Assembly: GCA_022701825.1 (NCBI GenBank)
Contig: JAKONR010000068.1
Location: 1 to 46,184, forward strand
Direction: 5' to 3'
DNA: 46,184 nt
Source of the DNA: Hymenobacteraceae bacterium
Lineage (GTDB): Bacteria; Bacteroidota; Bacteroidia; Cytophagales; Hymenobacteraceae
Below are positions 3,001-44,690 of the stretch, piece after piece. The number at the start of each line of letters is the position of its first letter. Positions within the stretch are counted from its first letter, which is position 1. A program made the translations under genes and the position numbers. The notes under the pieces were generated by a model, which saw nothing but the letters and a program-made list of their open reading frames with translations, ran no database searches and was not told where the DNA came from.

Positions 3001-4049
3001 GTGGTGCTGTAGTACCATTGGCGGCTGGTGCCGGCCGGCGTTTCGGTGGCCGTGAGGGCGGTGCCGCTGGCGCCGGTGGCCAGCGCCTGGTCGGCGGTGG
3101 GCGCCACGGCGACGTTGTTGACAGCGAACGCCGTGGGGTTGGGCGAGCCGATATTGCCGCCTACCACGGCCCGCACCAGGTAGCCCGTGCCCCCGGCCAC
3201 CGTGGCCGGAATAGTGACCGTTAGCGGACTGCTACTAGTGCTGCTAGCCAGCGTGATAGGCGCCGCAAAGCTGCCCGCCGCGTCGGATAGCTGCACCAGG
3301 TAGCCGCCCGCCGCCGAGCCCGAAGTCACGGTGTAGGGCACCGAAAGCGTGCCCGTGGCGCACACGGCGGCCGGGGTGGGGTCTTGGGTGGTGATGGTGG
3401 CCGGGGCGCAGGGCGCCACGGTGGTAGCGGCGCTGCGAGGCGCCGGCGCGGCCACCCCAAAATCGAAGGCATTTTGGTTGATGTCGGTGCAGCCGCCCGA
3501 GGCCCGAAAAGCCGCCGTGGTCGTGGTGAGCGCGGTGCCGGTGGGGCCGCTGCCTTCGTAGCCGTTGGCCGCGCCGTAGCCCACAAAGTCCATCACCGTG
3601 GGGCCGGCGGCCGGGTTGGCTCCGGTCAGGGCCGTGCCGTTGGTCACGAGCGCCACTTTGCCCAGGCCCGTGGTCAGGCTGATGCTGGTCGAGGTATGAT
3701 TGGGCGCGGGCGAGAGCGCGCCGCCCGCCGAGCCGGTAGCCAGGCCGATGAGGTAGTAGCCGCCCGCCGCAAGGCTGGTGCCGGCCGGGATGGCGGCCGA
3801 AACCGAAAAGCCGCCCGTGCTCGTGCCAGCGCTGTATTGAATAGTGTAGCCCCCGATAGCCTGGGCCGTGGCCGAGCGGTTGAACAGCTCCACGTAGTCC
3901 TGATTAAAGGTCGGGCTGCCGGTGTTCAGGCCGCCGCCAGTGTACACCTGGCTGATAACCACCTGGCTCCAGCCCAGCAGTGGTAGCAGTACTAATCCTA
4001 GGCTGCCCAGCAGCCAGCGCAAAAAATGAAGTGGTAGTGTTTGTTTCAT
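1..4049 (-). CDS. Very large secreted surface protein (lamin-tail-like N-terminus, Ig/IPT-TIG-like repeats); 3' end outside window
   Basis: ATG at 4049 (MKQTLPLHFLRWLLGSLGLVLLPLLGWSQVVISQVYTGGGLNTGSPTFNQDYVELFNRS) with signal peptide; the same frame reads as Ser/Thr/Gly-rich adhesin-like sequence wherever checked (e.g. GTSRQWYYSTTSG near 3017). Absent from the ORF track, probably because it has no stop in the window. Confidence 0.85.
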   Translation of the reverse strand, partial: MKQTLPLHFLRWLLGSLGLVLLPLLGWSQVVISQVYTGGGLNTGSPTFNQDYVELFNRSATAQAIGGYTIQYSAGTSTGGFSVSAAIPAGTSLAAGGYYLIGLATGSAGGALSPAPNHTSTSISLTTGLGKVALVTNGTALTGANPAAGPTVMDFVGYGAANGYEGSGPTGTALTTTTAAFRASGGCTDINQNAFDFGVAAPAPRSAATTVAPCAPATITTQDPTPAAVCATGTLSVPYTVTSGSAAGGYLVQLSDAAGSFAAPITLASSTSSSPLTVTIPATVAGGTGYLVRAVVGGNIGSPNPTAFAVNNVAVAPTADQALATGASGTALTATETPAGTSRQWYYSTTSGSGYTTAISGATGTSYVPNFAAAGVYYVVVRTAFGSCSVTSNEVKITVTAPTITTGSVAAGPYCVGQGAPAAISIPFTVSSAFAAGNVFTAYLSYNGFTTNKIAIGTLSGTGSGTIAGTIAQTTGLLTRADYRIRVEASSPAAVGTNNGTDLSVASYLDNEVVASSALAGNTRATLTFTGPAGCATNVVVTLKAGTTAGTKPVAGNTYAPGAGGGTVAFGTGTMLSSGQYVVYNGPPTGSITVTGLTNGTRYIFGIYTTNGGAAGTTGYSDGSTAFVIPVVPATLTDVLVPQYLSGHAVGSSTHPTRLPYVWRASLGNLAPNTTYKYYTAGRAANDAANYGGAGIPVETQVAGAFVRKGGGPGLDNSSSTFTTDANGSYTGWFGLEASPDARYNDQATVYPMVVLNNGDGTNVAVQFLPTSSPVTALNLGSAATSATGVRGNSQGTASNLVLTYDNAAGTGRPLAGTWLENDGSANTTNYAGFYGSVEAMAGAYGLLTPNANASGIRRVEQRALADGSLVGCPATSATGTWPSGAATASPSGGATALVLTSGDTPLLPVPVLTSLSSSAIRPGQTITLMGSGFGAAPATTVIFAPGGPVAAATVNAAGTSLTVLVPAGAGAGTVAVRNGCATSNTLATSLAPASAPGLLLLEDDFDYAAGQPLTANGWSQIPGTSGSIATASGNLLLSTYPQGAALSSLPATASTRASLVAGTDGPLYRAGARPAGATALYAAAVVNFSDAQAASDYFLAFTEAAGAAAGSPTYRSQVYATRASATTLTFELALAGRPTTASATPFSFNTNYLLVLKTETTGGVETTSLYVLPAGADFGTEPGTPLLSVTGTTPLASALNAVVLRQNGTGNATLTIDGLRLATGWGAAVGQPYYTAAGATIAAGSYASLTAANADVLTPTGGAVNVENSLILSSGVIASTAAAPLVLYPGTSVAGGSAASYVSGPLARVTGPGAATTTFPIGRGANFRPLVLTATAQTGPATYTATQT

Positions 4050-40531: not shown

Positions 40532-41356
40532 TTACGGAAACTTCGGAAATTTCGAGAAGTCAGGCTGCCGCTTTTCCAGGAAAGCATTTTTGCCCTCTTT
40601 CGCTTCTTCGGAGAGGTAGTAAAGCAGCGTAGCATTGCCGGCCAGCTCCTGAATACCAGCCTGGCCATCCAGTTCGGCGTTGAAGCTGGATTTCAACATG
40701 CGCAGCGCCAAAGGGCTCTTTTGCAATATTTTGTGGCACCAACCCACGGTCGTTTCCTCCAGTTTATCGAGCGGCACTACCTTGTTAACCAAGCCCATGT
40801 CGAGGGCTTCCTGGGCATCGTACTGGTCGCAGAGAAACCAGATTTCGCGGGCTTTCTTCTGGCCCACGATGCGCGCCAGGTAGGAAGCCCCAAAGCCGCC
40901 GTCGAACGAGCCCACATTAGGGCCGGTTTGGCCGAAGCGGGCGTTGTCGGCCGCCACGGTCAGGTCGCAGACTACGTGCAGCACGTGGCCGCCACCGATG
41001 GCCCAGCCGGCCACCATGGCCACCACGGGCTTGGGGATGCTGCGAATCATCTTTTGCAGGTCGAGCACGTTGAGGCGCGGCACGGTGTCGGCGCCCACGT
41101 AGCCGCCGTGGCCGCGCACGCTCTGGTCGCCGCCCGAGCAGAAGGCGCGCCCGCCTTCGCCGGTGAGGATGATGACGCCGATGTCGGTGCGATTGCGACA
41201 AATGTCCATGGCTTCAATCATTTCCTGCACCGTGAGCGGCGTGAAGGCGTTGTGCACCTGCGGCCGGTTGATGCTGATTTTGGCAATGCCCCCGTGCTGG
41301 GAGAAGAGAATTTCCTGGAACTCCTTAATCGGGGTCCACGCTATGGATTCGGACAT
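40532..41356 (-). CDS. menB: 1,4-dihydroxy-2-naphthoyl-CoA synthase
   Basis: Crotonase fold: [92 protein letters not shown]. Confidence 0.95.
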
Positions 41357-41370
41357 AAATGAGGTGTTGA

Positions 41371-41472
41371 GCTTCTGCATTTTTTCTGCGAAAATTCTGC
41401 GTCTTCTGCGGTAAACTACGCATTGTATTCACCGCAGAAGACGCAGAAGTTTTCGCAGAAGAAACGCAGAAG
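41371..41472. repeat. Palindromic repeat (TCTGCGTCTTCTGCGG type) between menB and menD
   Basis: ttctgcgaaaattctgcgtcttctgcggt ... accgcagaagacgcagaagttttcgcagaa, with outer extension gcttctgc...gcagaagc. Confidence 0.9.
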
Positions 41473-41477
41473 CTGAA

Positions 41478-43307
41478 TTAAGAAAAAGCTTGTTTAACGG
41501 CGGTACGGTACTCCTCAAAAAACGCCGCGTTGGTTTTCGAATCGGTGAAGATTTCGAGCACCGCCGCGCCTGCGCTTGCAAAGAAAACCGGCAGCGCGGC
41601 TGCAAGTTCGTCGAACGACGCCACCGGCAAATACCGCAGCTTAAAATCGCGGCACAGGTTTTCGGCCGTGAGTGCCTGCGTAGTTTCAAAAAACTCGTCT
41701 AGCTCGGGCTGTTGGCGCGGCCCGTCGATGAGGCGAAAAATGCCGCCGCCGTGGTTGTTGAAAAGCACCACTCGCAGGTTGGGCGTGGGGTAGTTGTGCC
41801 AGAAGGCGTTGCGGTCGTAGAAAAACGCCACGTCGCCGGTCAGCAGCACTACCGGCCGCGTGGGCTGCGCCAGCGCCGCGCCCACCGCCGTCGAGTTGCA
41901 GCCATCGATGCCGCTGGTGCCGCGGTTGGCAAATACGTCAATTTGGCGGCCTGCGGGCAAGCCCAGGATGTTGGCGTAGCGCACGGCCATGCTGTTGGCC
42001 AGGTGCAGCGCCGCGCCATCGGGCAGCGCCGCCAGCGCCTGCCGCATCGCGACGAACTCGTTGAAGGGCTGGTTTTTGGCGGCGAAGAAGCTGCCCAAGA
42101 ACTGGGCAGCGGTGGCGTCGGCTTGCTGCCAGGTAAGAGTTGGTTCTGTGGGGCCACTAGGAATCGAACCGGCCTCCCCCGTTGCGGAGAAGGGGGGATT
42201 CGAACCTCCTGACCCATTACCGTCATCGGTTTTCAAGACCGCCTTAAGCGTTACATTCCGGTTGTAGTCCTTCGTATCAAAAACCGCCAGCTGCTGAAAG
42301 AACACCGCCGGCTGCACCCGCACGATGCGCGTGAGGCTGCGAAAGGTATCGGCTACCTCGCCGGCCGGCTGCAAGTGCCAGTGCTGCGCGGGTGCCGCCT
42401 CGCGCAGAAACAGTTTCAGCGCCTTCGAAATCAGCGATTGCCCGAAGGTGATAAGCAAGTCGGGCCGTAGGTCGGCTTTTTGCTCTTTCGACAAGCCCGC
42501 CAGAAAAATATCCTGCCGCCGCACGGCCGGCACGTCGCCCAGGTTGGCAATGGTATCGGCCACCACGGGCACCCGCCGCGCCTCCGCAAACTCGTAGAGC
42601 GCGGCCGTGAGGGTCGGGTTTTCGGCCTGCTGGCCGGCCACTACCAGCACGCGGCCCGCCTCGCGCAGCTGCCGCCGGAGGTCCAGAATTTCGGCCGGCG
42701 GCAAAATGGTATTGGAGTGGTCGTCGTGGATAATCTTCACGCCCGCCTCGTAGCCCATTTCCTCGCCTGGCTTGGGGTAGAAGGGCTCGCGCAAGGGTAC
42801 ATTGACTTGCACCGGCCCGGCCGGGAAGGTCTGCGTCAGGTTAATTGCCTCGTTGATAATGCGCTCGCCGTGCCACTTGGCATCGGCGTGCGAGGTGTCG
42901 GCCGGGAAGTCGAACGTACCCTTGGCGTGCGCGCCGTACAAATCGCGCTGCCGGATAGTCTGGCCATCGAGCTGGTCTATCCACTCGGGCGGCCGGTCGG
43001 CGGTGAGCACCAGCAGCGGAATTTGCTGAAAAAAGGCCTCCGCCACGGCCGGCGCGTAGTTGAGGCCCGCCGTGCCGCTGGTGCACACCAGCACCACCGG
43101 CCGCCGCGTGGCCTGCGCGACGCCCAGCCCGATAAACGCCGCCGCCCGCTCATCGGGCACCACGCGCAGCCGGCCCCGGTAGGCCGGGTGCCGCGCAAAG
43201 GCCAGCGTGAGCGGGGCCGACCGCGAGCCCGGCGACAATATCACGTCGGTAATGCCGTGCCGGGCGCAGATTTCGGCGATGTTAAAAACGGCCTGGATGG
43301 ATTTCAT
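41478..43307 (-). CDS. menD: SEPHCHC synthase (2-succinyl-5-enolpyruvyl-6-hydroxy-3-cyclohexene-1-carboxylate synthase)
   Basis: AEICARHGITDVILSPGSRSAPLTLAFARHP; VLVCTSGTAGLNYAPAVAEAFFQQIPLLVLTADRPPEWID; NRGTSGIDGCNSTAVGAA; VVLFNNHGGGIFRLIDGP; carries a tRNA-like in-frame insert. Confidence 0.95.
   Translation of the reverse strand: MKSIQAVFNIAEICARHGITDVILSPGSRSAPLTLAFARHPAYRGRLRVVPDERAAAFIGLGVAQATRRPVVLVCTSGTAGLNYAPAVAEAFFQQIPLLVLTADRPPEWIDQLDGQTIRQRDLYGAHAKGTFDFPADTSHADAKWHGERIINEAINLTQTFPAGPVQVNVPLREPFYPKPGEEMGYEAGVKIIHDDHSNTILPPAEILDLRRQLREAGRVLVVAGQQAENPTLTAALYEFAEARRVPVVADTIANLGDVPAVRRQDIFLAGLSKEQKADLRPDLLITFGQSLISKALKLFLREAAPAQHWHLQPAGEVADTFRSLTRIVRVQPAVFFQQLAVFDTKDYNRNVTLKAVLKTDDGNGSGGSNPPFSATGEAGSIPSGPTEPTLTWQQADATAAQFLGSFFAAKNQPFNEFVAMRQALAALPDGAALHLANSMAVRYANILGLPAGRQIDVFANRGTSGIDGCNSTAVGAALAQPTRPVVLLTGDVAFFYDRNAFWHNYPTPNLRVVLFNNHGGGIFRLIDGPRQQPELDEFFETTQALTAENLCRDFKLRYLPVASFDELAAALPVFFASAGAAVLEIFTDSKTNAAFFEEYRTAVKQAFS
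42140..42246 (-). repeat. tRNA-3'-half-like sequence embedded in frame in menD
   Basis: Minus strand: AAGGCGGTCTTGAAAACCGATGACGGTAATGGGTCAGGAGGTTCGAATCCCCCCTTCTCCGCAACGGGGGAGGCCGGTTCGATTCCTAGTGGCCCCACAGAACC; anticodon-loop-like CTTGAAA and two TTCGAnTCC T-loop-like blocks. Confidence 0.75.
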
Positions 43308-43347: not shown

Positions 43348-43451
43348 CCCCACCCCCGACCCCTCCCCTCCGGGAGAGGGGAGCCGACCGCAAGCTGACA
43401 TACTCAGTCGTCAGGCTCCCCTCTCCCGGAGGGGAGGGGTCGGGGGTGGGG
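43348..43451. repeat. G/C-tract palindromic repeat between menD and menF
   Basis: ccccacccccgacccctcccctccgggagaggggagcc ... ggctcccctctcccggaggggaggggtcgggggtgggg. Confidence 0.93.
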
Positions 43452-43454
43452 TGA

Positions 43455-44690
43455 CTACGTCAGCACCGCGCCTATCGTCCGCATTTTATACTCCGTTTCC
43501 TCCCATTCGCGCTTCGGGTCCGAGTCCACCGTCAGCCCCGTGCCGGCGTAAAGAATAGCCTCGTGCGCGCGCAGCTGCAAGCAGCGCAGATTCACGAAGA
43601 GCCGCGACACGCCGGGCGCGGCCACGTTTACCGGCCCCAGAAAGCCGCTGTAATAGGCCCGGTCGTAGCCCTCGTGGCGGGCCAGAAACTCCAGCGCCGC
43701 CGTGCGTGGCATCCCGCCCACGGCCGAGGTCGGGTGCAGCAGCCGCAGCATATCGGTACCTAGGGAGGCGGGCGCGGGTACGTTTTTGAGGTCCACTTCG
43801 AAATCAGTGCGCAGGTGCAGCAGCTCGCCGGCCACGGTGGTGCGCGGGCCGGTTTCCTGGTATTCGCGCAGGCGCAATTGCTTGAAACAGTTCACGATGT
43901 AGCGCGATACCAGTGCCTGCTCCTCAATCTCCTTTTGCCGCCAGATGGCCTCCTGCGGGCGCAAACCCGGCAGCAGCGGCTGCGTGCCCGCCAGCGCCAT
44001 CGTATGAAAATGGCCATCGGCCGTGACCTCGGCCAGCACCTCAGGAGTAGCGCCCAGCCAGGTGCCCACGCCCGGCACGCTCACCAGCGACACAAAGGCG
44101 CGCTCATACGTTTGGCAAAGCTTCTCAAACGCCGCCAGCGGGTCGAAGCCCGGCGGCAGCGGGCGGCAGGCGGCCCGCGAGCTCACCACCTTGCCCACCG
44201 TGCGCGCCTCAATGGCCGCCACCCCGCGCGCTACCAGCGCCGTGTATTCGGCCTGGGTGGCGGTGTGGGGCGCGGGCTGCGGGCTGTAGTGCCACGCCAG
44301 CTCGGGCGGCGTGGGCAGCGCCAGCCACGCCGTGATATTGGGCGCCATGTCGCGGGCGGCGGGCGAGAGGCGCACCGCGTCGGGCTGGTCGGCCTCAAAC
44401 TGCACATCGGCGGGTAGAAACAGCGCCGGGTTGTGGTCGGAGTCGCGGAACGGAAAAAACGCGAATCCGGCCGGCGCCCGGTCGTCGAGCGCGGGCGGCA
44501 GGCCGGTATAAGCGGCTTCGAGCGAGCGGGCTACGAGCAGGCGCGGCGCGGCAGCACCCGGCTCGCGCCAGATGGCCAGCGGCCGGCCCGTGCGCAGCGC
44601 CCCCGCCGCCAGGTGGCGCAGCCGGGCCGCGCTACCGAGGCCGGCCGCGCTGGCTGGCCAAAAAAGCTGCTTGGGTTCTGCGCCGCGCAT
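43455..44690 (-). CDS. menF: Isochorismate synthase (chorismate-binding family)
   Basis: FVSLVSVPGVGTWLGATPEVLAEV; MALAGTQPL; HPTSAVGGMPRTAALEFLARHEGYDRAYYSGFLGPVN; LYAGTGLTVDSDPKREWEETEYKMRTI. Confidence 0.9.
   Translation of the reverse strand: MRGAEPKQLFWPASAAGLGSAARLRHLAAGALRTGRPLAIWREPGAAAPRLLVARSLEAAYTGLPPALDDRAPAGFAFFPFRDSDHNPALFLPADVQFEADQPDAVRLSPAARDMAPNITAWLALPTPPELAWHYSPQPAPHTATQAEYTALVARGVAAIEARTVGKVVSSRAACRPLPPGFDPLAAFEKLCQTYERAFVSLVSVPGVGTWLGATPEVLAEVTADGHFHTMALAGTQPLLPGLRPQEAIWRQKEIEEQALVSRYIVNCFKQLRLREYQETGPRTTVAGELLHLRTDFEVDLKNVPAPASLGTDMLRLLHPTSAVGGMPRTAALEFLARHEGYDRAYYSGFLGPVNVAAPGVSRLFVNLRCLQLRAHEAILYAGTGLTVDSDPKREWEETEYKMRTIGAVLT

Follow-up and report, generated by a model that had tools for sequence, protein, structure and literature searches.

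Segments of several tRNA genes recur in frame in a variable linker of MenD in Hymenobacter

The window, that is, the whole stretch of DNA analysed here, is 46,184 nucleotides long (contig JAKONR010000068.1 of GCA_022701825.1, from a Hymenobacteraceae bacterium) and belongs to a draft assembly in 573 contigs (G000). It carries menD, the gene for the vitamin K2 enzyme SEPHCHC synthase, in the context of a men gene cluster with the following features.

40532 to 41380, minus strand: menB-like naphthoate synthase gene (Pfam PF00378, 1.3e-79), context
41478 to 43307, minus strand: menD (SEPHCHC synthase), 609 amino acids, intact reading frame (TIGR00173, Foldseek)
42123 to 42320, minus strand: hypervariable MenD linker, approximately residues 330-395, from RVQPAVFFQQL to WQQ (118-genome alignment)
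43351 to 43446, no strand assigned: dispersed palindromic C/G-rich repeat just upstream of menD
43455 to 44690, minus strand: menF-like isochorismate synthase gene (Pfam PF00425, 2.6e-52), context

The gene is identified as menD by its score of 377.8 bits against the TIGR00173 menD equivalog profile (cut-off 244.2), and the best Foldseek matches of the modelled protein are the solved MenD structures 9e9b and 2x7j, with E under 1e-33. Its closest MenD relatives in named records come from Hymenobacter. The linker occupies the loop that joins the middle and C-terminal domains of MenD. In an AlphaFold model built on 32 aligned MenDs the mean pLDDT was 82.3, and residues 345-388, between helices 333-340 and 393-408, had a pLDDT of about 31 (all under 50); the linker loop is predicted to be disordered. 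The original prediction had placed a tRNA-like block in frame in a protein linker and had proposed a structural model to see if it formed a loop. The 118-genome alignment and the model both support an inter-domain linker, and the insert region is modelled as a low-confidence loop.

Within this linker (L011) there are three tRNA-derived pieces, all on the menD coding strand, given here in reading order.

42257 to 42287, minus strand: older degenerate tRNA-Ser(UGA) remnant, GGCGGTTTTTGATACGAAGGACTACAACCGG, read as AVFDTKDYNR
42184 to 42250, minus strand: tRNA-Ser-derived piece, tRNA positions 20-86, read as approximately LKAVLKTDDGNGSGGSNPPFSA
42148 to 42170, minus strand: 3' end of tRNA-Met(CAU), tRNA positions 53-75, read as GSIPSGPT

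The Ser piece spans the anticodon arm, variable arm, T-arm and acceptor 3' strand. When it was compared with its own genome by blastn, the block matched the tRNA-Ser(UGA) gene (G000:C454) over 62 bp at 87% with an E value of 6.5e-15, an alignment beyond chance that marks it as tRNA-derived; the ungapped alignment of the piece covers 67 bases at 84%. In the same search tRNA-Ser(GCU) matched the block at 96% across 26 bp; the last 23 bases of the piece are identical to that tRNA. The in-frame, tRNA-3'-like block on the minus strand of menD is thus confirmed, and the lack of any significant similarity to a tRNA gene, which the original prediction had named as fatal to it, was not what we found. 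The acceptor half of the piece is closer to Ser(GCU) than to Ser(UGA), so that the piece is either a mixture of both or has drifted. The Met piece, which had been noticed as a second T-arm/acceptor-like block, is identical to tRNA-Met(CAU) at 21 of 23 bases (91% over 23 bp by blastn). The remnant, which directly precedes the other two pieces, is an addition of this analysis. Taken alone it is weakly tRNA-Ser(UGA)-like (20/31, shuffle p 0.037), but two other linkers, L013 and L051, have at its position what is clearly a copy of tRNA-Ser(UGA) (86%), and the remnant matches that copy.

ARAGORN called no tRNA in the window, and the one Rfam match, to tRNA-Sec, reached 21.9 bits against a threshold of 47. 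Both results are consistent with a 3' fragment that lacks its 5' half; the original prediction had likewise noted that no D-arm or 5' half is visible. A complete hidden tRNA, with a cloverleaf and a paired acceptor stem, was rejected on the same results.

To place the linker in its genus, menD was taken from 118 genomes, comprising 117 Hymenobacter and one outgroup row (L034), which has no tRNA match and leaves the match counts unchanged. Delimited as the stretch between the ..FF.. and WQ.. motifs, the linker varies from 27 to 124 residues among these genomes. In the window it has 66, and in 38 non-Hymenobacter relatives 27-38, which makes about 30 to 38 residues extra; the original prediction had proposed to look for about 30. 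The reading frame of menD is open in the window, and only four of the 118 loci have it broken. Two of these, L015 (G020) and L016 (G005), have it divided into two ORFs at one shared position, approximately codons 106-112; it is also split near codon 260 in L031 (G010) and within the linker in L127 (G098).

Linkers were compared with 50 tRNA genes. Recognisable tRNA pieces occur in 42 of the 118, with 64 matches against 0.22 expected from codon-shuffled linkers at that score, and the rest of menD outside the linker gave three weak matches. No pieces were found in the 38 outgroup MenDs; L269, with four high matches, is Hymenobacter negativus and so does not count as outgroup. What had been taken as a singular event therefore recurs across Hymenobacter. 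Its donors number at least seven (Ser-UGA, Ser-GGA, Lys-UUU, Met-CAU, Arg-CCG, Arg-UCU and Phe-GAA), and there are further short matches to Ser-GCU and Cys. Pieces stand in tandem, up to four or five per linker. The window's nearest relative, L012, has Ser-GGA, Lys and Met in tandem after the shared remnant, and L087 has Ser, Ser-GGA and Phe after that remnant. In two loci almost the whole tRNA-Arg(CCG) lies in the menD ORF and exceeds the Rfam tRNA threshold, so that it may attract a false tRNA gene annotation.

L030, 2546 to 2617: near-complete tRNA-Arg(CCG) in the menD ORF (Rfam, 36.9 bits)
L120, 1531 to 1602: near-complete tRNA-Arg(CCG) in the menD ORF (Rfam, 34.4 bits)

No earlier report of tRNA-derived sequence in menD was found in the literature searched.

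The copies have a regular anatomy. Sense orientation accounts for 61 of the 64 matches, and 59 of these 61 share one frame, which reads the T-loop as Gly-Ser-(Asn/Ile)-Pro. The antisense Lys matches (L086, L108) and the antisense Pro match (L107) are probably not true antisense copies. Among 37 tRNA 3' halves, the three sense frames are free of stops in 31, 22 and 17 cases, and those of the antisense strand in 20, 19 and 26; since many halves are open in other frames and antisense, stop avoidance alone would not force the shared frame and strand, and these may be due in part to inheritance or to selection for a hydrophilic linker. On the 3' side, 47 of 61 copies stop exactly at gene base C74; on the 5' side the copies start at various points, from close to position 1 to as late as the T-arm. 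Bases 75-76 are seldom CA, which makes a CCA-tailed mature tRNA unlikely as donor, and this candidate was rejected.

Differences from the parental tRNA amount to 15.7, 13.0 and 18.9% at the three codon positions. This near-even distribution suggests little constraint at the protein level and, judged from sequence, the inserts look tolerated rather than domesticated. The word "domesticated" in the original prediction thus finds no support, as the linkers of sister species also differ and the loop is predicted to be disordered. Among T-stem pairs that have changed, 33 of 77 still pair against a random expectation of 16.8, an excess that could reflect constraint at the RNA level; it was larger at first (46/78) and shrank once better parental tRNAs were used, which makes unsampled parental variation the cautious reading.

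Turnover is evident between close relatives. The window and its sister L012 are 11.5% apart in menD core DNA, yet their tRNA sets differ, and the copies in each are approximately 10-25% from the parental tRNA. The copy common to G020 and G005 is 96.5% identical to their tRNA-Ser(UGA) gene. Copies match the tRNA variant of their own lineage better than chance: for tRNA-Arg(CCG) the summed score of 812 exceeded every one of 10,000 permutations (mean 763, maximum 800), and for Ser-UGA the fit was weaker (p 0.019), with phylogeny a confounding factor in both. Copies in L054 and L110 have acceptor ends as in the tRNA of their own genome. Some pieces are clearly inherited, namely the Ser-GGA copies with a common PILSA change in the L014-like linkers L042, L044 and L087 and the Ser remnant common to L011, L012, L013 and L051. 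Because of such inheritance related species are not independent and match counts are not event counts; the safe minimum is seven events, one per donor identity. Parsimony on the MenD core tree gave more changes than seven, a count that is inflated because decayed copies drop under detection.

When tRNA 3' halves were searched against four whole relatives (G021, G094, G020 and G105), the pieces outside tRNA genes were those in menD and a few att-like, phage-like or short fragments. In G020 a tRNA-Val piece is next to a tyrosine integrase, and one of tRNA-Met is close to an MmeI-like gene. In G021 a tRNA-Arg(CCG) 3' piece (48 bp, 90%) lies in a phage-like region (L306, G021:C12:63500-70000, approximately 3165-3212); an exonuclease gene follows it directly, and a gene that is RecT-like by eye (no Pfam match) precedes it. 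These non-menD pieces have similar edges: they begin at the anticodon arm or T-arm and stop at base C74. A scan of the own genome for GGTTCGAnTCC returned mainly tRNA genes, 23-base att-like 3' ends and a Ro60/Y-RNA-like array, and no second ORF linker with such inserts was present among the matches examined. The specificity for one gene is the strangest part of the case, as mere permissiveness should also let pieces accumulate between genes. The loop accepts more than tRNA, since an unrelated palindromic repeat lies in frame in the menD linker of L017, L083, L106, L113 and L128; a repeat of the same kind is the one upstream of menD in the window.

Two other products of the scan are recorded here in their own right. 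L218 (G000:C10, 6343-6365) and L222 (G000:C285, 1390-1412) are 23-bp exact copies of the 3' ends of tRNA-Leu(UAA) and tRNA-Thr(UGU), and are probably att sites of integrated elements. The array (L214, G000:C82, 851-1740) has approximately five tRNA-like units, GTGCCGTAG...TACTTCG...GGTTCGAATCC, one of which resembles a permuted tRNA, and is flanked on one side by a gene whose product has a Ro60-type vWA domain (Pfam PF25045, 8.1e-8), on the other by a PcfJ-like gene. Rfam assigned the array to no family at its threshold; its units are probably bacterial Y RNAs.

The general picture that we favour, and consider probable, is that tRNA segments were recombined at the DNA level into a permissive MenD loop, repeatedly, and then decayed near-neutrally. 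The Hymenobacter loop would be a site that receives segments of tRNA genes again and again, usually starting in the anticodon arm or 3' of it and reaching the gene end. Placed in tandem, in sense and nearly always in one frame, they would form a flexible linker rich in Gly, Ser, Asn and Pro. Copies would drift near-neutrally and then be overwritten, extended or deleted, leaving close relatives with different sets. The donors in such DNA recombination may be tRNA genes or tRNA-derived att segments of integrating elements and, with a first copy in place, later ones could be anchored on the common T-arm sequence GGTTCGAnTCC. The protein presumably tolerates rather than needs the inserts. Neither a donor event in progress nor an intermediate was seen among the linkers compared. 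A dedicated route can be put forward only tentatively: the linker or the T-arm resident in it would be the target of an enzyme, whether an integrase, a phage recombinase or a reverse transcriptase. If this were true, the menD loop would be a recombination hot spot that records the tRNA segments available in each lineage.

Of the other explanations, a possible though somewhat doubtful one is that the linker is a secondary attachment site of integrative elements that target tRNA 3' ends, whose att segments were left behind. The menD copies are blocks of identity to tRNA 3' ends, mostly with a common 3' edge, and same-edged pieces stand outside tRNA genes in the Val (by the tyrosine integrase) and Met cases of G020 and the phage-like Arg case of G021. 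Against it, none of the three menD neighbours tested, which are menF-like, thioesterase and menB-like genes, encodes an integrase, and the linker holds no inserted element in any of the 118 menD loci. An array of different tRNAs would require a series of elements, each with its own target, and some Arg-CCG copies are nearly full length. Capture of reverse-transcribed tRNA at a break in menD is unlikely. A common 3' edge with variable 5' edges is the classic signature of a fixed 3' end and 5' truncation, but mature tRNAs end in CCA, which the bases after C74 rarely match, and a cDNA origin leaves the targeting of a single gene unexplained.

We give little credence to a selected RNA element, by which a tRNA-like structure in menD mRNA would recruit tRNA enzymes. 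The 5' acceptor strand is missing from most copies, ARAGORN made one doubtful tRNA call in the 118 linkers, the T-stem of the window itself has a mismatch, and the linkers of many species hold no recognisable tRNA; the Rfam scores of L030 and L120 and the T-stem pairs kept more often than random are the observations that speak for it. A single ancient insertion that was inherited vertically, with no later events, accounts for the shared PILSA copies and the shared remnant but is highly improbable given seven or more identities, sister sets that differ and matches to lineage-specific donor variants, and it was rejected because there were several donors. Chance likeness of a low-complexity Gly/Ser linker to tRNA has a negligible probability in view of the own-genome E value and the shuffled linkers, the rest of menD and the outgroups, and was likewise rejected.

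Repeated recombination into a permissive loop, as we propose it, would make menD a natural, repeated case in which non-coding RNA genes supply new protein sequence at one defined site of a core metabolic enzyme. The number of species suffices to trace gain, decay and replacement, and the movement of tRNA DNA within a genome and the origin of new linkers from non-coding sequence become testable.

In eukaryotes, tRNA-derived SINE-type sequences have been exonised, and there too tRNA-derived sequence has turned coding; the menD case differs in being bacterial, without a retrotransposon and without dispersed copies. With the att sites that integrative elements have at tRNA 3' ends, the likeness is that similarly edged segments lie outside tRNA genes elsewhere in Hymenobacter, one of them by a tyrosine integrase, whereas menD is intact, has no integrase found beside it and carries several kinds of tRNA in tandem. 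The palindromic (REP/MITE-like) repeats of Hymenobacter enter the same permissive menD linker in frame, but their family is unrelated to tRNA. The nearest precedent is the Rickettsia palindromic elements, in-frame insertions that occur in numerous ORFs (PMC10969869, citing Ogata et al. 2000, 2002). As far as the account given there goes, they too place non-coding-type DNA in frame in the ORFs of metabolic genes, where it is apparently translated and presumed compatible with the fold, and this tolerated in-frame insertion is what the menD linker shares with them; the Rickettsia elements are dispersed palindromic families found in many genes, whereas the menD pieces derive from the genome's own tRNA genes and are confined essentially to one gene.
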